Assembly: GCA_003349885.1 (NCBI GenBank) | Contig: QFXC01000013.1 | Coordinates: 620,001-684,000 of the forward strand | Origin: an endosymbiont of Galathealinum brachiosum | GTDB lineage: Bacteria; Pseudomonadota; Gammaproteobacteria; SZUA-229 | Direction: 5' to 3' | Length of the DNA stretch: 64,000 nt | Part shown: positions 7,971 to 22,467 of the stretch, piece by piece | Position numbering within the stretch: the first letter of the stretch is position 1 | How the letters are laid out: each line of letters starts with the position of its first letter | Position numbers and translations under genes: made by a program | Notes under the pieces: model-generated | What the model was told of the DNA's origin: nothing | The model's database searches: none | What the model saw: only the letters and a program-made list of their open reading frames with translations

Positions 7971-9023
7971 ATGAAAAAATACCTTCTTTTCGCTGAACAG
8001 CTCTATAGTTACCCCATATTACGCCCCATCCAGCAAGCCATTCTTCAGCGTGGTGATCAAGTAGCATGGTATTTACATAAGATTCCAAATTTACTGTCAC
8101 AAGATGATGCTACAGTACTGACAAACGTAGAAGAAGTACAAAAATTCAAACCTGATGCCGTATTTGTGCCCACTAACTGGGTACCTGACTTTTTCCCGGG
8201 GGTTAAAGTCGAAGTTTTTCACGGTTTTAATGTTGGAAAGCGTGCAAATAGCAAGCAGGACCATTTTCGTATTCGTGGTCATTTCGACCTATATTGCACA
8301 CAAGGCCCTGACACAACCATTCCATTTCAGGAACTGGCAAAACATCATGGTTATTTTAGTGTTTCAGAAACAGGATGGTCTAAACTGGATCCAATGTTTA
8401 AGTGTGATGACCCGCAATTATTACGTAGAAAGATAAATACCAGTAAACCCATTATATTTTATGCATCAACCTTTAGTCCAAAACTGACGTCAGCACCTTA
8501 TCTAGCTCCCTATATACAGAAACTTTCAGAGACAGGTCGCTGGCACTGGGTAGTGACAGTTCATCCTAAGTCATTGAAAGAGACTATCGATACATATCGT
8601 AATATGCAGGGAGAAAACTTAACCTTCATTGAGCCAGGTGAAGAGGTCATACCGATGTTAAATGCGGCTGATGCCATGTTATGCGATACGTCGTCAATTT
8701 TTATTGAATTTCTACTATTAAATAAACCCGTAGTAACATATAAGACATCCGTGCCCGGACCACATTTACTAAACATCAATAATCCTGATGATATTGAAAA
8801 TAGCCTGGAAAGAGCATTAAGCAGACCAACTGACTTAATGGGTAATATAGAAACCTACTGTAATAGCATTCACCCCTGCAGGGATGGCAATTCATCTGAA
8901 AGAATCATTCAGGCAACAGAGAATTTTTTAGAACATGAATACAAAAGCATGAAACCTAAACCTTTAAATTTAGGTCGTAAGTTTCAAATGCGTAAAAAAA
9001 TGTCATATTATCGAATAAAATAG
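7971..9023 (+). CDS. CDP-glycerol glycerophosphotransferase-like protein
   Basis: A 350-residue GT-B-like protein resembling the catalytic half of TagF/TarF-type CDP-glycerol glycerophosphotransferases. Recognisable elements are EVFHGFNVGKR near residue 82, TGWSKLDPMF, TVHPKSLKE and the CDTSSIFIEFLLLNKPVV block. In teichoic acid systems these enzymes transfer glycerol phosphate; in Gram-negative glycan loci relatives add polyol phosphates or act as glycosyltransferases. No CDP-glycerol synthesis gene (TagD-like) is visible, so the donor is uncertain. It stands between oppositely oriented genes and is probably transcribed alone. Confidence 0.7.
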   Translation: MKKYLLFAEQLYSYPILRPIQQAILQRGDQVAWYLHKIPNLLSQDDATVLTNVEEVQKFKPDAVFVPTNWVPDFFPGVKVEVFHGFNVGKRANSKQDHFRIRGHFDLYCTQGPDTTIPFQELAKHHGYFSVSETGWSKLDPMFKCDDPQLLRRKINTSKPIIFYASTFSPKLTSAPYLAPYIQKLSETGRWHWVVTVHPKSLKETIDTYRNMQGENLTFIEPGEEVIPMLNAADAMLCDTSSIFIEFLLLNKPVVTYKTSVPGPHLLNINNPDDIENSLERALSRPTDLMGNIETYCNSIHPCRDGNSSERIIQATENFLEHEYKSMKPKPLNLGRKFQMRKKMSYYRIK

Positions 9024-9031
9024 GATCAAAA

Positions 9032-9757
9032 TTATTTCTTAAACCATCTCTTTATTGATCTCGGTAACATTTTCAAGTTGCCTTTTACAGAATATAACTT
9101 ATTCATTTTTGATATATAAGTTTCAGGATGAACAACTGACAAAGGAAAACGAAATTCTTCAGGTGCTGGTAATTTCATCGAATCTAATTTTTCTTTTTTA
9201 ACAAACATGAGTATATTCTGTCGGTACCATACCGGAATAGCCTCATCATTCCAGATCTTCATTCTTATAAAATCAATAAGAACATAATTTTCTTTTTCAA
9301 ATAAATCTACCCAATAATCAGGCCATTGCTCATTTACATGATTAGTTCCACCTTGAAAAGGTATTGCAGCCGAGAACATCACATAATCAGATGCCGTAGT
9401 TAGTGACTGAACAAATTTACTGGCAGTTTCAGGTTTTAGGTGCTCTGCCACCTCCAGAGTAATCGCTAGATCATATTTTTTGTCTAACTTAACGCCTTTT
9501 TCAAAATTAACTTCTGTTAATTCCTCTTCAGAAATTTTAAGAAGATTTTTCTCTACCCAAGCACCCTCCAGCCCTCTTACGTCAGAAACACCTTTTTCTT
9601 TTAATACAGAAAGCCAGGTACCTACACCACAACCGAAATCTACAGCAGACTCTAACTTAGGTAACGCCTCAATCACTAACGATAAGATGTTATTCGCTGC
9701 ATCAATAGTACTTTGATGACGATCTTTGTAAAAATTATGCTTATAGCCTTTTTTCAT
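9032..9757 (-). CDS. Class I SAM-dependent methyltransferase
   Basis: A 241-residue Rossmann methyltransferase. The SAM-binding motif is DFGCGVGTW at residues 40-48, and DLAITLEVAEHL is the usual motif III region. The C-terminal third is basic and rich in aromatic residues. It lies in the glycan locus, so O- or N-methylation of a sugar is plausible but unproven. It converges with the CDP-glycerol transferase-like gene, with 8 bases between the stops. About 260 bases without a gene separate its start from the divergent GT2 gene; that gap probably holds both promoters, though I could not pick a convincing one. Confidence 0.75.
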   Translation of the reverse strand: MKKGYKHNFYKDRHQSTIDAANNILSLVIEALPKLESAVDFGCGVGTWLSVLKEKGVSDVRGLEGAWVEKNLLKISEEELTEVNFEKGVKLDKKYDLAITLEVAEHLKPETASKFVQSLTTASDYVMFSAAIPFQGGTNHVNEQWPDYWVDLFEKENYVLIDFIRMKIWNDEAIPVWYRQNILMFVKKEKLDSMKLPAPEEFRFPLSVVHPETYISKMNKLYSVKGNLKMLPRSIKRWFKK

Positions 9758-10808: not shown

Positions 10809-11885
10809 TCAATAATCAGACTCTACAATAAAGTTATCATTTATTGTAGCTTCATAACTTGCGTATATCGATTCAACTTTTTCACGTATTATACTATTTT
10901 CCATATTTAGTCTAAATGAAATTATCTTTAACTCATCGCCAAAAATCAGTCTACAGCTATCAAGTGCGGCCGAATAAAATGAAGCCAGCACTATAGGGCG
11001 TGGTCCAATAAATGCTAATTGATATTCAATAGGGTAATCAAATAAAACAACTTTAATACCCAGTTTATTTTTAATTAAATCAAGTTTCTCAGCTGAATCT
11101 CTTCGATGCGCAATATAAATAAGGGGCTTTTGACCGAAATATTTTTTAACTTTACTTAACTGCGTTAAATACTCATCTTGAGTGATAATAGTAATTTCAC
11201 TAAGAGGCGAGCCAATAAAGTAAGCTTCGTCTATAGTCGGAAGAGAATCAACATTTGACCTTAAATAATTAAACTCATTCTTTACAACTCGATCTGTACT
11301 TCGAACAGATATGTCATACGCAGTAAAAAAACAGGCCTTATCCTCTTCCTGTTCTTTAATTCCCTGTATTAATCTTTTACCATAGAGCTTTATTTTTTTT
11401 GAGAGTTTAATATTTGAATTTTTATTAAATCCATTTTTTCGTTTTTCAGATAAGTCTAGCGTGCCATTTCCATCATCTAAAAAAACAAGTTCACGATGTG
11501 GCGTCACATTAATAAAATGATTCATATAGACATAATTTGTGTATCCAACAACAATATACTCAACATCACCGAGATATCTACTTATTTTATTAAGTCTTGG
11601 AACATAAAAAAATGAACGTTTAAAATATTTTGACTGCTGTAGCTTGCCAAATATTGATGTGATATTTTTTAAAAATGGACTACCGAAGAATAAATTTATT
11701 TCATTTAAAGAAACAACATCACACCACTCATCAATTGATTCTGTTAATGCCTGAATTTGTGGCTGGCTTTTTCTATCTGCCATAATTATGACAATACAAT
11801 CATCTTTTGACAACTTAAAGTAATGCTTTGCTTCAATTGCATTTAATAATTGCAACGGAGTTTTAATTAAAAAAACACTTTTCAT
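10809..11885 (-). CDS. Polysialyltransferase / GT52-like protein (tentative)
   Basis: A 358-residue protein starting KSVFLIKTPLQLLNAIEA, resembling the beginning of the GT52 and alpha-2,8-polysialyltransferase group. ELVFLDDGNGT near residue 125 and the late block IVLASFYSAALDSC fit the acceptor and CMP-binding halves of those GT-B enzymes. Such proteins transfer sialic acid or related nonulosonic acids from CMP donors to LPS or capsule. Its position as the last gene of the nonulosonate operon supports a role in attaching that sugar. The assignment rests on pattern and context rather than a clear catalytic motif. Confidence 0.55.
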   Translation of the reverse strand: MKSVFLIKTPLQLLNAIEAKHYFKLSKDDCIVIIMADRKSQPQIQALTESIDEWCDVVSLNEINLFFGSPFLKNITSIFGKLQQSKYFKRSFFYVPRLNKISRYLGDVEYIVVGYTNYVYMNHFINVTPHRELVFLDDGNGTLDLSEKRKNGFNKNSNIKLSKKIKLYGKRLIQGIKEQEEDKACFFTAYDISVRSTDRVVKNEFNYLRSNVDSLPTIDEAYFIGSPLSEITIITQDEYLTQLSKVKKYFGQKPLIYIAHRRDSAEKLDLIKNKLGIKVVLFDYPIEYQLAFIGPRPIVLASFYSAALDSCRLIFGDELKIISFRLNMENSIIREKVESIYASYEATINDNFIVESDY

Positions 11886-11932
11886 TTTTAACTCATTATT
11901 CTTTTAATTATTAGCTCAAATAACTAACTGGT

Positions 11933-12967
11933 TTAATGTTTATTATTACTTTCCATTTTATTAACAATACTTACATAATCGTCTGGCAAACCCATATCAA
12001 TCCAGTAATCATTTATTTCATACGATTTATTAACATAACCCTCATCATTCAACAGTGTAAATAATGTAGGTAAGTCAAAAAACTCATTTTTAGGTACGTG
12101 CTTCAAAACATCAGGACTCAGAACATAAATCCCAGTATTTATATAATAATTATGCTCAGGTTTTTCCTGCAAATTAAGTATATTATTCTGACTATCTATT
12201 TCGATTACACCATAAGGTATCTGATAGCTACTCTTTCTTACGCACATAGTGGCACTTGAATTGTTTTTATTATGATAATCTAGCAACTTTTCATAATCAA
12301 CTGAAGTAATAACGTCACCATTAGTCACAAAGAATGGCTCTTTAATTTCAGTATTAATTAAGCTTAAAGCACCGCCAGTTCCTAATCGTTTTGTCTCTTC
12401 AAGGTATTTAATTTCAACACCCAACTCATAACCATCTTTAAAGTGTTGCCTGATAATTTCAGATTTATAATTAACACTTAAAATAAACTTAGTAAAACCA
12501 TGAGAAATGAACATCTCCATAATATGCTCAAGCATAGGTTTATCACCAACCATCAACATCGGCTTAGGCGTATGTTTTGTCAAATCGCCTAATCTAGTAC
12601 CTAAACCGCCAGCCATAATAACAACCCAATTAGGCTTTAAATCAAACTCTTCATCATCAAGCGTAATAACATCCTGCAAGACCATATTACTATCAACAAT
12701 TGGCATGTGTTTTCTATGAAGTTCTTTTAATTTATGTACAACCTGTTTTCTTGTTGCATTAATATCCATAACAACTGGGTCTTTATTAATAATCTCAAGT
12801 AAATTCGTCTTATCATCTAGTATTGCTCGTCTGATATCACCATCAGTAAGGATACCAACCAGTTTATTAGCATCATCTACCACGGCCAAAAAACCATTAC
12901 CATTGGTATCAATCATTCTGATAGCTTCTTTGAATGTCGACTTACTTGATAGAACTAGGTTTTTCAT
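11933..12967 (-). CDS. CBS-domain nucleotidyltransferase (PtmE-like)
   Basis: A 344-residue protein with two CBS motifs (about residues 1-110) fused to a sugar-1-phosphate nucleotidyltransferase. The NTP site is AGGLGTRLGDLTKHTPKPM at 119-137, and FVTNGDV later provides the metal-binding Asp. The architecture matches PtmE of the Campylobacter legionaminic acid pathway, which makes GDP-glucosamine from GTP and glucosamine-1-phosphate; here the base and sugar are unproven. CBS pairs usually bind adenine nucleotides and may sense energy state. The start overlaps the upstream synthase by 4 bases (ATGA type), indicating translational coupling. Confidence 0.8.
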   Translation of the reverse strand: MKNLVLSSKSTFKEAIRMIDTNGNGFLAVVDDANKLVGILTDGDIRRAILDDKTNLLEIINKDPVVMDINATRKQVVHKLKELHRKHMPIVDSNMVLQDVITLDDEEFDLKPNWVVIMAGGLGTRLGDLTKHTPKPMLMVGDKPMLEHIMEMFISHGFTKFILSVNYKSEIIRQHFKDGYELGVEIKYLEETKRLGTGGALSLINTEIKEPFFVTNGDVITSVDYEKLLDYHNKNNSSATMCVRKSSYQIPYGVIEIDSQNNILNLQEKPEHNYYINTGIYVLSPDVLKHVPKNEFFDLPTLFTLLNDEGYVNKSYEINDYWIDMGLPDDYVSIVNKMESNNKH

Positions 12968-13947
12968 AATATATTCTTTTGAAGAAATGCAGAATCATAT
13001 TCCACATTATATTTTAATGTTTTTCCAATTAAAAGCTGGGGATCATCAATAGCACTCTCATTATCTATCGTTTTCATATTGATGTCATTTTCAGATAAGA
13101 TGCAACCTACCAACAAATCTCTAGCCGCTACTGGTACCTTCTGCCTATTCCTGTAATTTATTTCTTTTTCATTCATAACAAAAAGATGATCGTCGTTTAA
13201 ATCAAGAATTTCGTCAAGATACGTAAGCTTATTAACTATACTTTTTAACTTATCTATCCCTACAGCAGATTGAAAATCAATTCGTTCCTTTCCTTCATTT
13301 ATTGTTATATGTTTTTCAAATACTCTCGCACCTAATGCGTAAGCATACTCATTACTTGTTACTGACATCTCACTGTCATATGATGAATGATCTGCATATC
13401 CAATAGTACAATTAGGATACATACTAACTAACTCTTTTATTCTTCCTAATTTTATGTCATTCAGGTCGGATGGAAATGATTGAAAGCCAACCATTAAAGT
13501 TACATCTCTGCTTTTATGCTTATTAACTAGAAACGCAATTTCATCAAGCGTTCTACCTCCTACACCTAATATTAATGGCACAGAAAATTCATCTAATTTC
13601 GATAATAATTTTTTATCTTTAAATGATACAGAATGTATTTCAACATACCTAACATCAAAGCTAGAAATCAACTCAAAAGCGCCCACATCAATAGGCATTA
13701 AAATAATGTCCAGACCAATACTTTTAGCATGTTCAAAAATTTCTTTCCAGTCATCTATAGAAAACACCCACTTTTTAGCATCTTGATAAGAAGAGTGACG
13801 TGTCGACATAAGTTGATTTAAGTCCATCAAAACTTGAAATTTAATACCTTGTAACCCGGCATTTTTAGCTTCATCAATTAGCTTTAATAAGTATTCTTTA
13901 TCGCCTTCATGATGAAATGCTGTTTCAGCATATATATAAAAACTCAT
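12964..13947 (-). CDS. Second, divergent NeuB-family nonulosonate synthase
   Basis: A 327-residue member of the N-acetylneuraminate synthase family, which condenses phosphoenolpyruvate with a hexosamine to form a nine-carbon sugar. It keeps GIKFQ, GYADHS and FEKHI from the TIM barrel and a C-terminal antifreeze-like SAF region (VPVAARDLLVG, then LLIGKTL). It departs from the usual form: the N-terminal EIGxNHxG motif is replaced by AETAFHHEGD, and the active-site stretch after the EKH motif reads DFQSAVG. A standard synthase is encoded 1.3 kb upstream in the same operon, so this copy probably makes a different product or has altered specificity. The gap to the SpsF-like gene is 3 bases. Confidence 0.75.
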   Translation of the reverse strand: MSFYIYAETAFHHEGDKEYLLKLIDEAKNAGLQGIKFQVLMDLNQLMSTRHSSYQDAKKWVFSIDDWKEIFEHAKSIGLDIILMPIDVGAFELISSFDVRYVEIHSVSFKDKKLLSKLDEFSVPLILGVGGRTLDEIAFLVNKHKSRDVTLMVGFQSFPSDLNDIKLGRIKELVSMYPNCTIGYADHSSYDSEMSVTSNEYAYALGARVFEKHITINEGKERIDFQSAVGIDKLKSIVNKLTYLDEILDLNDDHLFVMNEKEINYRNRQKVPVAARDLLVGCILSENDINMKTIDNESAIDDPQLLIGKTLKYNVEYDSAFLQKNIL

Positions 13948-13950
13948 TAA

Positions 13951-14760
13951 TCACCCAATTTCAAAATAATTTGATTCTTTAATACGCTTATTCATATCTT
14001 CCTGAAACTCATCGAAACTTATTTCTTTTCCATATGGCATCTTTATATTTCCTGATGACTCTATTTTACTATTCGCTATTTTATTCTCATCTATAATTGC
14101 AACAATATCTTTTAAATTGATTTTCAAGGGATTTCCAGAATAATATTCTAAAATGCTTTTTGTTCGATCTAGATCTTTATTGGTATCAACCGTAACGGTG
14201 TAGTTAGAACATGATTTAAGATCTCTAATATTTACAACGCCACATTTAAAATGTTCTGGCTTAAACATATACAGCAACAGATATTCACTTATAGCAGGAT
14301 CAATTAGATCAAAACATTCTTTAACGGCCGTCAACTTCATAACTTCTGCTGTTGCCCCTACTGGAACATCAATAATCCTGGTGTAATCCAGGTCATTTAA
14401 ATTATGAATATTTATTTGTTCTTCTAAATATTCATAAGATGTAAATACGTTGTCACCTGTAATTCTTATAACATTATCAGCACACTCATTATTGCCTACT
14501 GAAATCATCCTCTCGATAACAGCATCAGGAGAGCCTCTATATATCTTGATTTCATTCCTACTAGCTACATCCTCCAAAATATCATCTACAGCTTCATGTG
14601 ATGTGCATAAATATATTTCATTAATATTATTAACTAACTTTAATCTTTGTATCATAAAATCAAGCATTGTGAAGTCTTCAACAACATTTCTTAAAACTTT
14701 TAGCGGAAGCCTCGTTGAGACAGTTCTAGCTATGATGCAGGCAATAGTTTTTTTACTCAT
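13951..14760 (-). CDS. SpsF-like cytidylyltransferase family protein
   Basis: A protein of about 269 residues in the SpsF group (CMP-Kdo synthetase homologues). The N-terminus IACIIARTVSTRLPLKVL has the R-x-x-S-T-R-L-P-x-K nucleotide-binding pattern; RITGDNVFTS provides the later metal-binding Asp. It may activate a nonulosonic acid as its CMP form, as no classical NeuA/LegF is visible in the operon. I chose the ATG at 14760; an upstream TTG at 14778 would add six residues. The ATG overlaps the end of the YhcH-like gene by 8 bases. Confidence 0.7.
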   Translation of the reverse strand: MSKKTIACIIARTVSTRLPLKVLRNVVEDFTMLDFMIQRLKLVNNINEIYLCTSHEAVDDILEDVASRNEIKIYRGSPDAVIERMISVGNNECADNVIRITGDNVFTSYEYLEEQINIHNLNDLDYTRIIDVPVGATAEVMKLTAVKECFDLIDPAISEYLLLYMFKPEHFKCGVVNIRDLKSCSNYTVTVDTNKDLDRTKSILEYYSGNPLKINLKDIVAIIDENKIANSKIESSGNIKMPYGKEISFDEFQEDMNKRIKESNYFEIG

Positions 14761-15244
14761 AGTGAAATACTTTTTCAAATAAATTTAATTTAATTTTAAC
14801 AACCAACTTAACGACATTCGAGCAATCGCAGCCTGCCTTAACCCCAGTTTTATGCACATCTTCAAACATAAACACGCCTGCTTTTCCAGGTTCCAATATA
14901 ATATTTTTTACTTTTTTATCGGAGTTATATAAATAATAATCGTTATCAATATCTGACTCAAAACATTCTAACGAATTATCAAACTTTAATAATTCTATTT
15001 TTTCACAACCATCAAGAACAATATGCACATCAATATATTTTTTGTGCGATTCAAACACGCTTTCAGGCTTTAGAGTGGCATGCATTGCGATGCAAAAAAC
15101 ATCTTCATTTAATATTATTTTTTCAGCTTCACCCAATTCAAGTGTTGTTGCTTTAATTTTACATCTATCGATAAAATCAATAATATTATTATCATCAAAT
15201 AAATTATTTAATAGTCCATCACTTAAACTTACAATATATGCCAT
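14753..15244 (-). CDS. YhcH/YjgK/YiaL family protein (sugar anomerase-like)
   Basis: A 163-residue cupin-like protein of the YhcH (DUF386) family. Family features are HKKYIDVHIVLDG in the middle and GVFMFEDVHKTGV near the end, which supply the metal-binding His and acidic residues. E. coli YhcH (NanQ) is an N-acetylneuraminate anomerase that opens the ring for the aldolase. Here it sits among biosynthetic rather than catabolic genes, suggesting a ring-form role for the nonulosonic acid or its precursor. The ATG at 15244 is preferred over the adjacent GTG at 15247. Confidence 0.75.
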   Translation of the reverse strand: MAYIVSLSDGLLNNLFDDNNIIDFIDRCKIKATTLELGEAEKIILNEDVFCIAMHATLKPESVFESHKKYIDVHIVLDGCEKIELLKFDNSLECFESDIDNDYYLYNSDKKVKNIILEPGKAGVFMFEDVHKTGVKAGCDCSNVVKLVVKIKLNLFEKVFHYE

Positions 15245-15269
15245 CACTTATACCTAACTAATGAACCAG

Positions 15270-16331
15270 TCAATCAAAATCGCTTAATAATAACGTTTTA
15301 TCTTTTTTAGTGTCATTTTTGAACTTACGCCCCAGAACATAATCTATCTCGCCAGGCCTGATACCTGTTCCTGGACGCTTATAAACAAAATCTTCTTTCG
15401 TTAATACATGCCCTTTTCTCACGTCTACGTTTAATGTCGCGCTTCTTCTGAATTTTTCTCTTTTTTCAATTTCTTCAGGGGATAATACTTTATATGAGCT
15501 ACCTAAAGTTCTATATACCTTATTTCCTTCTTCACAAATTATTTTTAGATCCTTTTCATCAGCAGACACTTTATGATCCCAGCCAAACATCTCCTTATCT
15601 AAAGTAAAATGTTTTTCAATTACTTTCACTCCTTTCCCAATTGCCGCTAAAGGCACGGAAAAACCAAGCGTGTGGTCTGAATAACCAATTTCACAATCAT
15701 ATAATGCATTTAATGTGTCTATAAAATTAAGATTAACAATTTCATCTCTAGGTGGATAAATAGATACTGTATGTAATAGAGAGAAGTTATCAAACTTTTT
15801 ACTTTTAAATAAATTATAAACAGCATCAATTTCCTGCAAATCAGCCATGCCTGTTGATATAAGTATAGGCAAACCTGTATCTATTGCAGCTTCAATCATT
15901 TCCAGATTATCCGCATCCATCGAAGCCAGCTTAATAAAACTACTATTTATTTCTTTTAAAAAATAAACGCCATCAGCATCAACAGGTGTACAGCCAAAAT
16001 CAATACCTATATCATCACAATATTTTTTAAAAACACCAAGCTGTTCTTTGTCATTAATAAACTCATCTATCTGCTCTGATACACCATCAAGATTTAATTC
16101 TTTTGTTTCCCATTTATCGATGTTTTCTATTTTTACTGAACCCTCATCTAAATCAGACATATACTGCTCTGTAAACAGGTTTTCTTTAGTAAAATACTGA
16201 AACTTAACTGCATCAGCTCCGCAATCTTTAGCTGACTTTATCATTTTCAAACCGAGCTCTGTATTTCCATTGTGATTACATCCAATTTCAGCAATTATAT
16301 ATGGCTTATTTAATTCTTTAAAAATCATCAT
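15270..16331 (-). CDS. NeuB-family nonulosonate synthase (LegI/PseI/NeuB type)
   Basis: A 353-residue synthase that joins phosphoenolpyruvate to a 6-carbon amino sugar to give a sialic-acid-like product. It has the classical motifs: IAEIGCNHNG, AVKFQYF, IGYSDHTLG and EKHFTLD in the barrel, then a C-terminal SAF domain with RRSATLNVDV and KRPGTGIRPGE. That last motif and the dehydratase and aminotransferase upstream make a legionaminic or pseudaminic acid-type substrate more likely than ManNAc. The start (two adjacent ATGs at 16331 and 16328) overlaps the preceding glycosyltransferase gene, so translation is probably coupled. Confidence 0.85.
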   Translation of the reverse strand: MMIFKELNKPYIIAEIGCNHNGNTELGLKMIKSAKDCGADAVKFQYFTKENLFTEQYMSDLDEGSVKIENIDKWETKELNLDGVSEQIDEFINDKEQLGVFKKYCDDIGIDFGCTPVDADGVYFLKEINSSFIKLASMDADNLEMIEAAIDTGLPILISTGMADLQEIDAVYNLFKSKKFDNFSLLHTVSIYPPRDEIVNLNFIDTLNALYDCEIGYSDHTLGFSVPLAAIGKGVKVIEKHFTLDKEMFGWDHKVSADEKDLKIICEEGNKVYRTLGSSYKVLSPEEIEKREKFRRSATLNVDVRKGHVLTKEDFVYKRPGTGIRPGEIDYVLGRKFKNDTKKDKTLLLSDFD

Positions 16332-17232
16332 ATAACTCTTTCTTTAATTTAATATTTTCCCACCAACAAAATTTATTAGTATTAAATCGTGCATTAATAA
16401 TACTTATATATTTATCTTTACCGATTTCTTCTATAAATCTTTCTAATTCAATCACGTCAGAATATAACTCTTCAAACTCAGCGCATACGTGCCTAAAATA
16501 ATTATAATGTGATTTTTTTATACTAATTCCTTGCGCCAGCCTATCTTCAGTCAGCTTAAAATCAAACCCTACAAATGATTCATCGTGTTGTCTATAGTTT
16601 GCAAAAGTCTTATCTAACTTAAGGCCTTTACCGCCATCAATTAACACTTTTGTAGCTATAAACCAATCAAGTGCGCGTATATCATCAGGAAACATCATAT
16701 CTCTATAATTATATTCAGTTAAATTAATAGCCATACTTCCAAACCCGATATAATTAAATGATTTTATATGTTTCCAATTATCAATATCACGCGGGATGCT
16801 CCTACTACCAAAAAACGACTCTTTACCCAGTCTATTAAGGTTTTTATCCACAATGTAAAAATCATTAAACACAAACGAATAATTATCAATTTTATTTCTT
16901 ATTTCTTTTACCCTGTTGCAATCAACATTCTCATCAAAATCAGAAAATATTAATACATCCGCATTAAGATCATATGATAAATCTATCAGGCGCTTCCTTA
17001 ACTCAATGTGTGTTTGTTTATTTGTTACATCAAACACATGAATAGTTAAGTGATTACTGTTTAAACTTGCTATTTCGCTTCTTATCAACTCTCCATCTGC
17101 TTGATCATTAATGATCAAAACTTCAAAATCAATATCAACCTGACAGAATACAGACTTTAAATAATCATTTAAAAATAGTTTAAACTCTTTACACTCATAC
17201 ATTACCGTCGAATATATGATCTTTTTACTCAT
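16318..17232 (-). CDS. GT2-like glycosyltransferase (GT-A fold)
   Basis: A 304-residue protein resembling family 2 glycosyltransferases. It begins with a strand-turn pattern IIYSTVMYECKEF, then VLIINDQADG and FSDFDENVD, the last serving as the acidic metal-binding site. The later block RALDWFIATKVLIDGG is the usual acceptor-side helix. It is encoded inside the nonulosonate operon between PIG-L and NeuB, sharing a TGATG stop/start with PIG-L. It may transfer the operon's sugar or a neighbouring residue. The sequence is divergent, so the family call is moderate and the donor unknown. Confidence 0.6.
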   Translation of the reverse strand: MSKKIIYSTVMYECKEFKLFLNDYLKSVFCQVDIDFEVLIINDQADGELIRSEIASLNSNHLTIHVFDVTNKQTHIELRKRLIDLSYDLNADVLIFSDFDENVDCNRVKEIRNKIDNYSFVFNDFYIVDKNLNRLGKESFFGSRSIPRDIDNWKHIKSFNYIGFGSMAINLTEYNYRDMMFPDDIRALDWFIATKVLIDGGKGLKLDKTFANYRQHDESFVGFDFKLTEDRLAQGISIKKSHYNYFRHVCAEFEELYSDVIELERFIEEIGKDKYISIINARFNTNKFCWWENIKLKKELYDDF

Positions 17233-17891
17233 CAGCGAATTTCTTTTAATAATACAAAGCTCTCAGCATATTCACATCCAGCCGTGGAGCCTCTCAATGT
17301 TGATAGTGCCTTTAAACCTCTAATGCTTCTTGGAAATGGGTGTTCACCCACTTCACCTTCGTATAACTTCATTATTTCCAATTTCTTTTCAATATGATCT
17401 GTGATATCAACAAATACATTTGGAATATATGCATCTTCTTTTGTGCTGGGAGAGAACTCTGTTTCGCTTAATGTTTCCATCATGTATATTTTTTTAATAT
17501 ACGGGTATCTAAATGATTTAGTACAGCTATAAGCAGCTGAAAAGATTGCCCTATGATCGCTATGAACATCACTTTTAAATGGCAGATAGATTATAGTTGG
17601 TTGTATTTTTTGAATAACTTCTGATATTTTACCTACAAGATCACTAACCGAATATTCATCCACCCGCATAGTATCGAGTCTTAAGTTATGAGTGCTACTA
17701 AAGCCATACTCTTTACTTACTTTTGATATTTCCTCTTCTCTTTTATCATAATTTTCATCTGTAGCATTAAGACTTGTACATATCAACCAATGTATATTGT
17801 CACCTTCAAGTTTATGCTTTAATAGAGCGCCACCACAGCCCAACGTTTCATCGTCTGGATGTACAGCTAATACCAATACTTTATCATTCAT
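17232..17891 (-). CDS. PIG-L family deacetylase
   Basis: A 219-residue zinc-dependent N-deacetylase of the PIG-L/LmbE family. The zinc motif HPDDE is at residues 11-15 in AVHPDDETLGCGG, and the third ligand is in SDVHSDHRA. These enzymes remove N-acetyl groups from GlcNAc-containing molecules. In this operon the likely target is an acetamido group on a sugar nucleotide or on the nonulosonic acid, freeing an amine for a different acyl group. It starts at the TAATG junction with the GNAT gene, so the two are translationally coupled, which supports a deacetylate-then-acylate sequence (inference). Confidence 0.85.
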   Translation of the reverse strand: MNDKVLVLAVHPDDETLGCGGALLKHKLEGDNIHWLICTSLNATDENYDKREEEISKVSKEYGFSSTHNLRLDTMRVDEYSVSDLVGKISEVIQKIQPTIIYLPFKSDVHSDHRAIFSAAYSCTKSFRYPYIKKIYMMETLSETEFSPSTKEDAYIPNVFVDITDHIEKKLEIMKLYEGEVGEHPFPRSIRGLKALSTLRGSTAGCEYAESFVLLKEIR

Positions 17892-18676
17892 TAGAAAACG
17901 TCCGACATTATTAAATCAACCTTAAAATTGCATCCACTCATATGCTCATCAAATATTTTATAACCAAAGGCGTAGTCAAATGACTTCTCATTATCATAAT
18001 CATTACAATCACTTACATATAAATTATATTTTCTATTCTTATCTAATGAATCAAAATAATTATCATGAAAAATCAGATCATGTTCGTTTTCAAATTCTTT
18101 ATATATTACATTTCCATCTTTAATATATTTCATGCCCGGCTTAGATAAACGCCAATTCAACATCAATTCATCATCAAGACTAAACTCAATCTGATTTTTA
18201 CTTTTTTTTGAGCTTTCTCTCGGCAATTTATCACTCGTAAGCTCAACTACACAACCCTGTGTGTCGATTGTCCATCCTAGCCTCTTTTTGAATCCAGGGG
18301 CAGAATTCATGTTAGGAAACCCATAAACTAGAGAATAATTTAATTTTTTAGCTTCCTCATAAACCACATTAGCTTGCTCAATAAACAAACCATGCCTTCT
18401 ATAACTCACATCAACCATAGTCGTCATAGACAATGCAGCCAATATACCTGTCCCATTATATTTCAGCCTTACAGGAATAACGGCATAATGGCCGACTAAA
18501 GCGCCTTCATGATAATACAATGAAACAACAGGGTCACCACAGGGATTCTCAATATAAGCCCACTCCCATAGCTTTTCATCGAGCTCAGCGTTAAAGCTTT
18601 TATGAAACAATTTAATTATTTCTTTTTTATGTTTTTTTAACTCTAATTTATCTGTAATTAATATTTTTTCAAACAT
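17891..18676 (-). CDS. GNAT family N-acyltransferase
   Basis: A 261-residue GNAT protein. The acyl-CoA pyrophosphate loop is YRRHGLF, preceded by the strand MTTMVDVS, and NSAPGFKKRLGW resembles the end of the fold. The C-terminal 100 residues are an extension with no motif I recognise. In this operon it could acylate an amino group of the nonulosonic acid or its precursor with acetyl-CoA or another acyl-CoA. The neighbour upstream is a 3-hydroxyacyl-CoA dehydrogenase (8-base overlap) and downstream a deacetylase (1-base overlap). The acyl donor is not determinable from sequence. Confidence 0.75.
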   Translation of the reverse strand: MFEKILITDKLELKKHKKEIIKLFHKSFNAELDEKLWEWAYIENPCGDPVVSLYYHEGALVGHYAVIPVRLKYNGTGILAALSMTTMVDVSYRRHGLFIEQANVVYEEAKKLNYSLVYGFPNMNSAPGFKKRLGWTIDTQGCVVELTSDKLPRESSKKSKNQIEFSLDDELMLNWRLSKPGMKYIKDGNVIYKEFENEHDLIFHDNYFDSLDKNRKYNLYVSDCNDYDNEKSFDYAFGYKIFDEHMSGCNFKVDLIMSDVF

Positions 18677-19457
18677 CTTCTATTATACTTTTTATCGTTG
18701 TTTTGTTTTTTCTACCCAATATATTTCTTTCTAATGCTTTTTTAAGTGTTTTTGGCATGTATATTGTTTCATCAACCTCTTTAAGGTTGCTTAATATTTT
18801 ATAAGAAACATCAATACCTATAAGATCTATAATAAAAAATATATCTCTACCATCATATAATTTTGAATACACCTGGTTTATTTGCTCTACTCCATAACCA
18901 AATTTTTCTACCAGTTTTAAAGCAGATGAAATCTCATGGAAAAGTATGTAATTCCCTATGTATCCTCTATTTTCATTAACATCAACGACAACATAACCCA
19001 GACTCTCAAACTTACTCACTAAAGAACTTAGATCACCTAATTCTTCCTGCTTCACATTGTTGTTTGACAACTCAATCAAACCCAAACTAATTGGATTAAA
19101 AAAATGCATTCCTAATATCTCTGAAGATATTTCATCTGGTGAGTATGATGATGTATTGGTTAAATACAAACTATTATTATTGAGTCTTATTTTTTCATAA
19201 ATTTCTTTTTTTATCGTTATGTCTTCAACGACGCTTTCAATAGTTGTACAGTTAGGTAATTCATTCAATTCTGCATATAAAACATACTTGCCTTCCCGGG
19301 TATCTCTTAGACTTTTTTTAAGGATTTTTACCTGTCTTAAAAAATCTTTTTCATTAATATCATTTCTACTATATATATTAACTTCACAGCCCGACAAATA
19401 TAATAATGCGGAAATTTGTTTCCCCATCAATCCAAAACCCAAGACATTTATCATCAT
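18669..19457 (-). CDS. Short 3-hydroxyacyl-CoA dehydrogenase-like protein
   Basis: A 262-residue NAD-dependent dehydrogenase of the 3HCDH family: an N-terminal Rossmann fold (INVLGFGLMGKQISALL) and the short C-terminal helical domain ending NILGRKNKT. The catalytic His is in GMHFFNP, and a Glu follows at +11 (IEL), one position nearer than the +12 I recall for mammalian HADH. It lacks an enoyl-CoA hydratase domain. Its place between a PglD-like acetyltransferase and a GNAT gene is unusual for a fatty-acid enzyme; it may supply a 3-hydroxyacyl-CoA for sugar N-acylation, or act on a sugar (inference). A gap of 99 bases separates it from the PglD-like gene. Confidence 0.75.
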   Translation of the reverse strand: MMINVLGFGLMGKQISALLYLSGCEVNIYSRNDINEKDFLRQVKILKKSLRDTREGKYVLYAELNELPNCTTIESVVEDITIKKEIYEKIRLNNNSLYLTNTSSYSPDEISSEILGMHFFNPISLGLIELSNNNVKQEELGDLSSLVSKFESLGYVVVDVNENRGYIGNYILFHEISSALKLVEKFGYGVEQINQVYSKLYDGRDIFFIIDLIGIDVSYKILSNLKEVDETIYMPKTLKKALERNILGRKNKTTIKSIIEDV

Positions 19458-19556
19458 TATTTATTCGCCTATCTTTCTTCACACTTAATCTATATACATT
19501 GCTTATTCTATTTAACTAACCAATAATCATTTATCGATAAGATTTATCTGAATCTC

Positions 19557-20138
19557 TTATTCTTTAATTACTTCACCTGCTTTAATAAAACTATCACAAC
19601 CTATTTCAGCTCCTTCCTTGCAGACAGCATTACTACCAAAAAAAGTGCCTTGTCCTATTTTTGCTCCTCCATTAACAGCAGCACACGTTGATATATGACA
19701 GAAATCGCCAATAATGACTTCATGCTCTATAAGTGCCTTGCTATTTATAATGCAATTATCACCTATTGTTACAGCCGCATTAATTAATGCATCATGCATT
19801 ATAATAGTACCCCGTCCTATTTTTGCCTTACGTGACACATATGCACGAGGAGACACAACATTAGCCAGGCTGGAATTATTAACCTCTAGAATACGGTTAA
19901 TTCTTTTACGTATCGATACTGTTTTTATCTGCCCTACAGTAATCAGAAACTCATTACCTTTTTTGGTCAAACGTTCTATATCATCATCTGTGCCTATGTA
20001 CTGATAACCTGATATTTTTTCACCTATCAGTTCTTTCTTATCTAGAATACCGACTATTTCATATAGATTTTCCTGTTCAATAACATCTATACAAGACTTA
20101 CAATGACCGCCGCCACCAATTAATACTATTTTTTTCAT
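19557..20138 (-). CDS. PglD/NeuD-type sugar O/N-acetyltransferase
   Basis: A 193-residue acetyltransferase with an N-terminal Rossmann-like PglD_N domain (IVLIGGGGHCKSCIDVI) and a left-handed beta helix of hexapeptide repeats from about residue 95. The catalytic His is in IEHEVIIGDFCHIS. PglD acetylates the 4-amino group of UDP-4-amino-4,6-dideoxy-GlcNAc, the product made by a dehydratase and aminotransferase like the two genes directly upstream. NeuD, by contrast, O-acetylates sialic acid. Its ATG overlaps the LegC-like stop by 4 bases. Either LegH-like N-acetylation or NeuD-like O-acetylation is possible; context favours the first. Confidence 0.8.
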   Translation of the reverse strand: MKKIVLIGGGGHCKSCIDVIEQENLYEIVGILDKKELIGEKISGYQYIGTDDDIERLTKKGNEFLITVGQIKTVSIRKRINRILEVNNSSLANVVSPRAYVSRKAKIGRGTIIMHDALINAAVTIGDNCIINSKALIEHEVIIGDFCHISTCAAVNGGAKIGQGTFFGSNAVCKEGAEIGCDSFIKAGEVIKE

Positions 20139-21277
20139 CCCGGCCTTACGCTACTTGGTATATTCACAACACGTGATTCCAGCCATACCGAATTATCCAA
20201 ATCACCACATTGTGCATCTTTATACATATCCAGCTTACTCATTAAGCACCATATTGGTCTCGTCATAACATTTCTAGAGTTAGTCTCTTCAAGAAAGCTG
20301 TCTCTATCTTCTTTAGAATTTAAAATTATTGAGTTAAGCCAGTAGTTAGCTTCACTGTTCACTGGGCTTTTCACGAATGTCATATTTTTAGTTGAAAAAT
20401 AATTTTCATACATCCTTGCAAGCTCATGTTTATTTTTGATAAACACACTTATATTCTCTAGTTGAGCAACCAATAGAGCTGCATTTATATTTGGCATTCG
20501 GTAATTATAGCCAGTCATATCATGTTTATATTCCCACTTATGCGGAACTTTAGCAGTAGTAGTCATATGTTTTATTTTCTTTGCGATCTCTTCATCATCA
20601 GTAACAACGCAACCACCGCCACCTGATGTTATAATTTTATTACCATTAAAACTGAATACACCTAATTTACCAAAAGTACCAGTATGTTTGTCCTTATAAT
20701 AACTACCTAATGATTCAGCAGCATCTTCAACGAGGGAGATATTGTACTTATCACATATTTCTTTAATTTCATCAATTCTGCACGGATGCCCAAATGTATG
20801 CATTGGCACACAGGCTTTAATTGCTTTTCCTGTCTTTTTGTTAATACACGTATCATTTTCTACTATTGCATTTTCTTCTAAAAATACTTTCAATGAAATG
20901 GCCGACATACCCATAGTATCTCGATCTACATCGACAAAAACAGGTATAGCATTACAATAACTAATGGCATTACACGTTGCTACAAACGTCAGGGGCTGGG
21001 TTATAACCTCGTCACCTGATTCTACCCCAACCGCAAGTAGTGAAATATGTAAGGCTGAAGTACCATTTGATGTAGCCACTGCATACCTTGCACCTACAAA
21101 TTCTGCAATAGAACTTTCAAATCGATCAACAAATTCACCTACAGAAGAAACAAACGTTGAATCTATACACTCATTTAAGTATTTCTTTTCATTACCAATA
21201 AATCTTGGCTCATGTAATGGTATAAACTCATCTGTCTTATAAACCGACTTAATAAAATCAATAACATCCTTATACAT
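20135..21277 (-). CDS. LegC-family PLP-dependent sugar aminotransferase
   Basis: A 380-residue DegT/DnrJ/EryC1 aminotransferase. Lys214 in FNGNKIITSGGGG is the PLP Schiff-base residue, and Asp185 in EDAAES holds the pyridine nitrogen. The overall sequence, including the N-terminal PLHEPRFIGNE, resembles LegC, which converts a UDP- or GDP-4-keto-6-deoxy-HexNAc to the 4-amino sugar with glutamate. The dehydratase that would make its substrate is encoded directly upstream, overlapping at TAATG. The product would feed the acetyltransferase that follows. Confidence 0.85.
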   Translation of the reverse strand: MYKDVIDFIKSVYKTDEFIPLHEPRFIGNEKKYLNECIDSTFVSSVGEFVDRFESSIAEFVGARYAVATSNGTSALHISLLAVGVESGDEVITQPLTFVATCNAISYCNAIPVFVDVDRDTMGMSAISLKVFLEENAIVENDTCINKKTGKAIKACVPMHTFGHPCRIDEIKEICDKYNISLVEDAAESLGSYYKDKHTGTFGKLGVFSFNGNKIITSGGGGCVVTDDEEIAKKIKHMTTTAKVPHKWEYKHDMTGYNYRMPNINAALLVAQLENISVFIKNKHELARMYENYFSTKNMTFVKSPVNSEANYWLNSIILNSKEDRDSFLEETNSRNVMTRPIWCLMSKLDMYKDAQCGDLDNSVWLESRVVNIPSSVRPG

Positions 21278-22467
21278 TACATTTTTCCATCAAGATACTT
21301 ACCTGTATCTTTATAGCCAAATTCAGGAATCATTTTGAAAAAAAGATCTACAATATCTTTTTTAGACCATTGTTTATTTTCTTTAAATACTCTTATCGTT
21401 TCTTCAAAATTTTCAAGTAATTTTTGTTCATATTCCAGATCATTCTTTATCACTGCAATGTTCTGGTATTTCTCCATATCTATCGTTTCTTTATCTGTAA
21501 AAAATTCTTCGAAATCTTTTTCACCCGTAGTATCACTAATTGTAAAAAAGCAGGGCCACATACCTTTTTTGGGTAATGTTTTAGCTAGAGTTCTTGCTTC
21601 ATCTTCATCTTCACACAAATAAGGCTCATAGCCTTTTCCCTTCAGATACTCTACTGCAATATCAGCAAATGACATTAAATGCAGATTCTTACTTAATTTT
21701 GGAAAAAATATATCTCTATTTTCCCCAAATAAGCAACTCATTAAACATAACTCACCACTTTCTTGCTGAGTAATAAAGTATCTCTTAATATCTTTCGGCG
21801 CGACTATGGGTTGGTTTTTTTCTATTCTTTGATTAAAACTATGCAGTAGCGAACCATCGCTAAACGCTACATTTGCAAATCTTGCTGTTGATATTTCGAT
21901 GTTTAAAGACTTTCTCATCAGAAACATTTCCATTATCTTTTTACTTGCACCCATCATATTTGCTGGGTTTGCCGCTTTATCAGTGGATACGCAGAAATAC
22001 TTTTTAGCTCCATTATCGATTGATTGCTGTATTGTTTTATCCGTATTAAAAACATTTACATCTATCATGCGCATCAAGGTAAAGGGATCTTTCTCACTTC
22101 TGACATGTTTTAAAGCCGACAGATTAAATACATAATCATATTTACCATCGGATTCAATAAAAGCATCATACTCAATGCTACCAATATCTAACGCTAACGT
22201 CTGAAACTCACCCTCTATATAACCAATTGAACTTCTTAAATCACGAACGAGTTCAACCATATTATTTTCACTAATATCTACAACATGTAATTTTTTTGGG
22301 TTTCTTTTGAAAATTTCTTTAACTACAGCCTGGCCGATCGAGCCAGCACCACCAACCACTAGAAATGTGGACGATGAAATAATCTTTTTAAGCTCGGAAT
22401 CATATTTTTCAATATCTTCGTTGAATAGCTCTTTTTCTCTGCCTATCAAACTTAATATCTGACTCAT
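21277..22467 (-). CDS. LegB-like nucleotide-sugar 4,6-dehydratase
   Basis: A 396-residue extended short-chain dehydrogenase of the FlaA1/WbpM/LegB type. The NAD site is GGAGSIG at residues 39-45. The catalytic region is STDKAANPANMMGASKK at 161-177; Met172 stands where a Tyr is found in PseB-type enzymes, as in WbpM and CapE, and Lys176 follows. It converts a UDP- or GDP-HexNAc to the 4-keto-6-deoxy sugar, the first committed step of the pathway. The N-terminal 30 residues are not a membrane segment, so it is soluble, unlike WbpM. It is the first gene of the operon, transcribed leftward from about 22.5 kb. Confidence 0.85.
   Translation of the reverse strand: MSQILSLIGREKELFNEDIEKYDSELKKIISSSTFLVVGGAGSIGQAVVKEIFKRNPKKLHVVDISENNMVELVRDLRSSIGYIEGEFQTLALDIGSIEYDAFIESDGKYDYVFNLSALKHVRSEKDPFTLMRMIDVNVFNTDKTIQQSIDNGAKKYFCVSTDKAANPANMMGASKKIMEMFLMRKSLNIEISTARFANVAFSDGSLLHSFNQRIEKNQPIVAPKDIKRYFITQQESGELCLMSCLFGENRDIFFPKLSKNLHLMSFADIAVEYLKGKGYEPYLCEDEDEARTLAKTLPKKGMWPCFFTISDTTGEKDFEEFFTDKETIDMEKYQNIAVIKNDLEYEQKLLENFEETIRVFKENKQWSKKDIVDLFFKMIPEFGYKDTGKYLDGKM

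Follow-up and report, generated by a model that had tools for sequence, protein, structure and literature searches.

What sugar is made by an operon that combines the opening genes of legionaminic acid (Leg) biosynthesis and two NeuB-type synthase genes with a deacetylase, an acyltransferase and a 3-hydroxyacyl-CoA dehydrogenase (HCDH), and how is its synthase supplied when no known hydrolase of the pathway is encoded in the genome? The question is raised by positions 10809-22467 of a 64,000-nucleotide stretch of DNA (the window; contig QFXC01000013.1, positions 620,001 to 684,000) from an endosymbiont of Galathealinum brachiosum, where 13 open reading frames, all intact and all on the minus strand, follow each other in the same direction. 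Based on family searches and comparisons of gene order, we propose, with a probability of about one half (0.52), that its product is a nonulosonic acid (NulO) of the legionaminic type (D-configured), activated with CMP and bearing an exchanged N-acyl group. It is best filed as a nonulosonate pathway variant that includes a cassette for acyl exchange and whose hydrolase/epimerase step is unexplained, outside the canonical Leg and pseudaminic acid (Pse) pathways as tested.

The reactions, and with them the identity and position of the acyl group, are those we infer for the operon. LegB, LegC and NeuD would generate a nucleoside diphosphate (NDP)-2,4-di-N-acyl-2,4,6-trideoxyglucose, and at this or a later stage a PIG-L deacetylase would take off one N-acetyl group, most likely the one derived from N-acetylglucosamine (GlcNAc), i.e. 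at hexose N-2, equivalent to N-5 of the NulO. A GNAT protein would re-acylate the freed amine, with HCDH reducing a 3-ketoacyl-CoA, e.g. acetoacetyl-CoA, to the (S)-3-hydroxyacyl-CoA that would act as donor. Following hydrolysis and 2-epimerisation, for which a GT2-like protein is the best candidate by position, NeuB1 would join the released sugar to phosphoenolpyruvate, YhcH would equilibrate the anomers, an SpsF-like protein would yield the CMP-NulO, and the last gene of the operon is a candidate transferase. In the established pathway, the GlcNAc nitrogen becomes N-5 of the nonulosonic acid with its acetyl attached; as this nitrogen arrives acetylated, a non-acetyl N-5 substituent requires both deacetylation and re-acylation.

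The acyl exchange is indicated by three consecutive genes inside the operon, encoding HCDH, GNAT and PIG-L. The PIG-L/LmbE de-N-acetylase (17232-17891; PF02585 1.8e-20, over cut-off) retains the AxHPDDE and HSDH motifs, and the N-acyltransferase (17891-18676) belongs to the Acetyltransf_9 type of GNAT (PF13527, 3.7e-11; 43.6 bits, cut-off 25). When the surroundings of LegC genes were examined in 24 gammaproteobacterial genomes, two LegC operons were found to hold PIG-L, at 70% and 45% identity to that of the window, and in both the gene overlaps a formyltransferase gene, itself downstream of a NeuC/LegG gene. Relatives with 32-70% identity occur within legionaminic/pseudaminic operons of gammaproteobacteria, rhizobia, one cyanobacterium and one archaeon: PIG-L adjoins NeuC and NeuB in a plasmid-borne Leg operon of Ensifer adhaerens (61% identity), is accompanied by a formyltransferase in a pseudaminic-type operon on a Synechococcus plasmid, and stands between neuC and neuB on a plasmid of the haloarchaeon Halorussus, in an operon with two formyltransferase genes. 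On a Sinorhizobium mexicanum plasmid, in a Leg operon with NeuB, it lies near a GNAT related to that of the window (38% over 119 residues, with the block AALSMTTM common to both). The Ensifer operon additionally holds an ATP-grasp ligase gene after NeuB (L119, 14676-16587), perhaps a third re-acylation route leading to an amino-acyl amide.

The association is also seen in a sample of 69 non-redundant PIG-L loci from IMG/VR. These were retrieved with aligned NulO-associated PIG-L proteins as the query, which biases the share of loci with NeuB within ~5 kb of PIG-L (37 of 69), the adjacency test being internal to the loci. A formyltransferase is the direct neighbour of PIG-L in 26 loci, compared to 5.0 expected from the other genes of the same loci, and any acyl installer in 35 compared to 8.7; neither count was reached in 20,000 simulations, and on this comparison chance was rejected as the reason for PIG-L lying next to acyl genes. 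In the bacterial and archaeal operons above, the acyl installers beside PIG-L are interchangeable, usually a formyltransferase and once a GNAT related to that of the window. Gene order thus supports removal of an N-acetyl group and addition of another acyl as a real, recurrent module of nonulosonate operons, and the window operon shares its layout, with PIG-L directly beside an acyl installer inside a NeuB operon. Virus-classified IMG/VR contigs (among L139-L218, e.g. L157, L163, L169, L177, L205 and L207) carry compact modules of NeuB, a short formyltransferase and PIG-L, often with a GNAT; phages may use such modules to modify surface sugars.

The third member of the cassette, HCDH (18669-19457; 262 aa), is a short stand-alone 3-hydroxyacyl-CoA dehydrogenase with both family domains over cut-off (3HCDH_N 1.5e-16 and 3HCDH 3e-7). 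In an alignment with distant relatives, the catalytic Ser/His/Asn/Glu/Asn occupy invariant columns, i.e. as judged from sequence the protein keeps the active-site residues of (S)-specific 3-hydroxyacyl-CoA dehydrogenases, and its top PDB matches are 3-hydroxybutyryl-CoA dehydrogenases. Since enzymes of this family are specific for (S)-3-hydroxyacyl-CoA, the operon product is predicted to carry an amide-linked (S)-3-hydroxyacyl group, in the simplest case (S)-3-hydroxybutyryl. Residue conservation and gene position make the dehydrogenase half of the acyl swap plausible, and a YSRND stretch hints at NADP as cofactor. Amides of (S)-3-hydroxybutyrate are present in marine bacteria, on a nonulosonic acid and also on bacillosamine (PMC3210612). 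The protein has diverged, with 28-31% identity to the nearest relatives found and a single-residue gap in the stretch from His to Glu. Searches for relatives gave matches of only 25-34% identity in 369 gammaproteobacterial genomes, nearly all within long FadB-size frames, none at E 1e-17 in 398 genomes of the phylum, none in plasmids, four distant ones in the genome_contigs collection and two in IMG/VR. Predicted structures were unusably poor for HCDH (predicted local distance difference test, pLDDT, 53) as well as for the GT2-like protein (pLDDT 35). In a polysaccharide-type locus of a Methanomicrobiaceae archaeon contig (L035, 335-3574), the genes for a hexapeptide acyltransferase and a thiolase are followed directly by one for an HCDH that has a Zn-ribbon acyl-CoA-binding-like domain attached, which is a second and independent hint at 3-hydroxyacyl-CoA production for surface sugars.

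At the front end of the operon, the canonical legionaminic dehydratase, aminotransferase and acyltransferase (LegB, LegC, LegH) are all present. The first gene (21277-22467) encodes a LegB/PglF/SpsM-like NDP-GlcNAc 4,6-dehydratase (Polysacc_synt_2 7.9e-47) with 72-76% identity to the opening genes of Leg-type operons and carries the triad T-(x)9-M-(x)3-K (STDKAANPANMMGASK) that was reported for SpsM (PMC7439481). It is followed by a LegC family aminotransferase (20135-21277; TIGR04181, 555.7 bits, cut-off 420) and a NeuD/PglD/LegH hexapeptide N-acyltransferase (19557-20138; TIGR03570, 176.4 bits, cut-off 160.8). For the pseudaminic enzymes, the models stayed below cut-off for PseB (73 of 408 bits) and PseC (245 of 424 bits), and PseG is absent from the genome. 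NeuB1 (15270-16331) is a nonulosonate synthase-like protein that matches the NeuB family (PF03102) at 1e-65, though below the NeuB and PseI equivalog cut-offs; its motifs KLASMD and GWDHxxSAD are variant, while RPGTGI of the SAF domain is kept. The preliminary description had named NeuB-type synthases and a nonulosonate operon with a LegB/LegC/PglD-like front end: both synthases do match the NeuB family, the second (3e-31) as a divergent paralogue, and the LegB/LegC/NeuD front end stands, whereas neither standard pathway can be assumed given that LegG/NeuC and PseG are missing. That description had overlooked a YhcH/NanQ-type gene as well as the lack of the hydrolysing 2-epimerase and of a canonical NeuA.

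Several observations weigh against the proposed product. In the source genome, which is 99.5% complete and was searched with targeted family models, LegG/NeuC was not found, as nothing exceeded the cut-off for PF02350; the sole match (28 bits, sub-threshold) is a glycerophosphotransferase-like protein at 7971-9023 of the window, which rejects a LegG hidden elsewhere. PseG/SpsG, considered as a substitute, was likewise not found in the genome with TIGR03590, the same model detecting the B. subtilis control. With both hydrolases absent, the step before NeuB1 is unexplained, and, no canonical NeuA having been found either, the operon is not a standard legionaminic pathway as tested. Moreover, no second locus with PIG-L, GNAT and HCDH together was found in any collection searched, so that the gene-order search suggested in the preliminary description bore out PIG-L beside acyl installers and not the trio. 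PIG-L of the same family also occurs in polysaccharide loci without NulO genes. Finally, FdhC/QdhC and Acinetobacter psaG/H install 3-hydroxybutanoyl groups, for which the available excerpts of those reports name neither a deacetylase nor a dedicated dehydrogenase. The preliminary description had read the cassette as removal of N-acetyl and addition of an acyl group donated via HCDH; the recurring module and the intact catalytic residues of HCDH agree with this, the 3-hydroxyacyl identity and the nonulosonate site staying at the level of prediction.

The hydrolysing step is either catalysed by an unrecognised enzyme, or it is a hexosamine that bears the 3-hydroxyacyl group. For the former, the GT2-like gene (16318-17232), to which no role is assigned, adjoins NeuB1, and a relative lies beside a related NeuB in the other operon without LegG (L083). 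Epimerase_2 (PF02350) exceeded the cut-off in 16 of 16 other LegC genomes searched. In one of these, G072, it is represented only by a non-hydrolysing WecB, beside an FnlB-like gene, and PseG was not found; besides LegC and NeuD, this genome has a GT2-like gene as well as a NeuB sharing the unusual ASMD and GWDH motifs. The GT2-like gene and the variant NeuB1 hence coincide with the absence of known hydrolases in two distant genomes, which is a correlation of two cases and no proof; plasmids, IMG/VR and 53 genomes of the order held no further GT2-NeuB1 pair, so the link rests on these two genomes. We tentatively consider a nonulosonate route without LegG/NeuC and PseG, in which the GT2-like protein, together with the variant NeuB1, would take over NDP-sugar release and/or epimerisation, or NeuB1 would accept a gluco-configured sugar, the product being N-(S)-3-hydroxyacylated by the deacetylase-GNAT-dehydrogenase cassette.

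The latter alternative, which we regard as rather unlikely, is that LegB, LegC and NeuD serve a hexosamine, e.g. N-(S)-3-hydroxybutyryl bacillosamine (QuiNAc4NHb), and that the NeuB genes serve another ulosonic acid. The front end of the operon is the bacillosamine pathway and would not need LegG, in agreement with the absence of LegG and PseG from the genome. N-(S)-3-hydroxybutyryl bacillosamine is known from Pseudoalteromonas, and QuiNAc4N with (S)-3-hydroxybutanoyl from Plesiomonas (PMC3210612). Sets of formyltransferase, PIG-L and aminotransferase genes also exist where NeuB is missing; those on plasmids of Labrenzia and Sulfitobacter include a sugar transferase, suggesting the same acyl exchange acting on hexosamines. 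However, the HCDH-GNAT-PIG-L genes are tightly coupled to GT2-NeuB1 through overlaps of 1 to 14 bases, the nearest relatives of PIG-L and GNAT are located in NeuB/NeuC operons, and acylation of the free 4-amine of bacillosamine needs no deacetylase.

It is also distinctly unlikely, in our view, that the three genes are neighbours without a joint path. GNAT would then move acetyl itself or some other acyl group, and HCDH would have no part in acyl supply, e.g. oxidising or reducing a sugar beta-hydroxy acid. The 3HCDH superfamily does hold sugar-acid dehydrogenases such as L-gulonate 3-dehydrogenase, and the short, divergent HCDH with its altered His-Glu spacing was found paired with the module at no other locus. 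Yet it keeps every catalytic residue of the acyl-CoA dehydrogenases and has its best PDB matches among the 3-hydroxybutyryl-CoA enzymes, and the archaeal series of acyltransferase, thiolase and Zn-ribbon-fused HCDH argues in the same direction. It is very unlikely that the operon was acquired incomplete or has decayed, with LegG lost and no NulO product made: the missing hydrolysing epimerase and PseG, the low GC and the lack of the GT2 gene in 53 other genomes of the order would agree, but 13 of 13 frames are open and coupled, and the distant G072, with LegC/NeuD, GT2 and NeuB1 and neither LegG nor PseG, argues for a maintained variant.

Five further genes follow NeuB1. A YhcH/NanQ (DUF386) family protein (14753-15247; PF04074 7.1e-22, TIGR00022 above and NF040884 below cut-off) is a candidate nonulosonate anomerase, Neu5Ac anomerase activity having been demonstrated for YhcH (PMC8141875); a relative of this type, known from sialic acid catabolism, is here located within a biosynthetic operon. 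The SpsF-like protein (13951-14778; CTP_transf_3 family match) is the only candidate CMP-nonulosonate synthetase of the genome, where no canonical NeuA/LegF was found and the search otherwise gave only a KdsB-type protein and, as a weak third match, a protein encoded beside ATP synthase genes that is probably GlmU. In B. subtilis, spsF is required for Leg transfer (PMC7439481). NeuB2 (12964-13947) lacks the RPGTGI motif of the SAF domain and forms a cassette with SpsF and a CBS-domain sugar-1-phosphate nucleotidyltransferase of the PtmE type (CBS-NTP; 11933-12967, family match). NeuB2 followed by the SpsF-like gene, with CBS-NTP adjoining, was observed at four loci (window 12964-14778; L074 750-2569; L075 8504-10293; L077 5353-8102), and the cassette also occurs in operons having a normal NeuB and NeuC. 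The last gene (10809-11885) encodes a probable glycosyltransferase (GT) with no family or PDB match, its GT52/polysialyltransferase likeness being seen by eye only.

As initially described, the 13 genes mostly overlap and PIG-L, GNAT and HCDH are in direct succession. Overlaps (negative values) are found at 8 of 12 junctions, in transcription order -1 (LegB/LegC), -4 (LegC/NeuD), +99 (NeuD/HCDH), -8 (HCDH/GNAT), -1 (GNAT/PIG-L), -1 (PIG-L/GT2), -14 (GT2/NeuB1), +22 (NeuB1/YhcH), -26 with a TTG start or about -8 with an internal ATG (YhcH/SpsF), +3 (SpsF/NeuB2), -4 (NeuB2/CBS-NTP) and +47 (CBS-NTP/GT), the 99- and 47-base gaps being the only sizeable ones. Scans of the operon for promoters and terminators gave no excess over shuffled sequence. 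The operon is flanked by ilvE/glnE and by lipopolysaccharide-type glycosyltransferase genes, and it fits a horizontally acquired surface-sugar locus because its GC content is low (31.6%, compared to 39.3% in the remaining window) and a profile search for the GT2 gene found no copy in 53 other genomes of the order. Just outside, a methyltransferase (9032-9757) is weakly similar to TIGR03587, a pseudaminic-acid-associated methylase model.

Non-acetyl N-5 nonulosonic acids are chemically known, and the literature found names no enzyme for removal of the N-5 acetyl group; a full-text search linking PIG-L to formyltransferase, polysaccharide and deacetylase, which does not cover subscription papers, returned no paper. 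The recurrent pairs of PIG-L with a formyltransferase or GNAT are a concrete candidate for N-5 deacetylation, both for archaeal 5-N-formyl-legionaminic acid and in the window operon. Should the operon prove active although LegG and PseG are missing, this would also point to an unrecognised route to the NeuB substrate.

Compared to the legionaminic pathway (LegB, LegC, LegH, LegG, LegI, LegF; of the UDP type in Legionella and B. subtilis and the GDP type in Campylobacter), the window shares LegB, LegC, LegH/NeuD and a LegI/NeuB homologue, as well as the CBS-NTP gene of many Leg operons and the SpsF-like cytidylyltransferase of B. subtilis sps (PMC7439481). It differs in having no LegG or SpsG/PseG genome-wide, a variant NeuB1, an extra NeuB2, and inserted PIG-L, GNAT and HCDH. 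HCDH shares family and catalytic residues with the 3-hydroxybutyryl-CoA dehydrogenase Hbd (4kuh/4r1n), but is distant in sequence and encoded within a sugar operon. As far as the available excerpts of the sources go, the Acinetobacter Pse/Leg systems (psaG/H, lgaH/I) and FdhC/QdhC, the latter being transferases for other sugars, decorate a deoxyamino sugar with an amide-linked 3-hydroxybutanoyl group, as predicted for the window; in Acinetobacter this occurs by swapping the 4-N (N-7) acyltransferase gene pair, whereas exchange is here proposed at N-5, and the (R) configuration reported for the K93 and FdhC/QdhC products contrasts with the predicted (S). Also similar is the operon of Halorubrum sp. 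PV6, which carries 5-N-formyl-legionaminic acid: it likewise combines NulO genes with an installer of a non-acetyl N-acyl group, a formyltransferase gene near legG with no deacetylase named (PMC6137143), in place of the GNAT and HCDH without LegG found in the window. PIG-L is present as well in the comparable operon of Halorussus, and such PIG-L/formyltransferase pairs would explain products such as 5-N-formyl-legionaminic acid.

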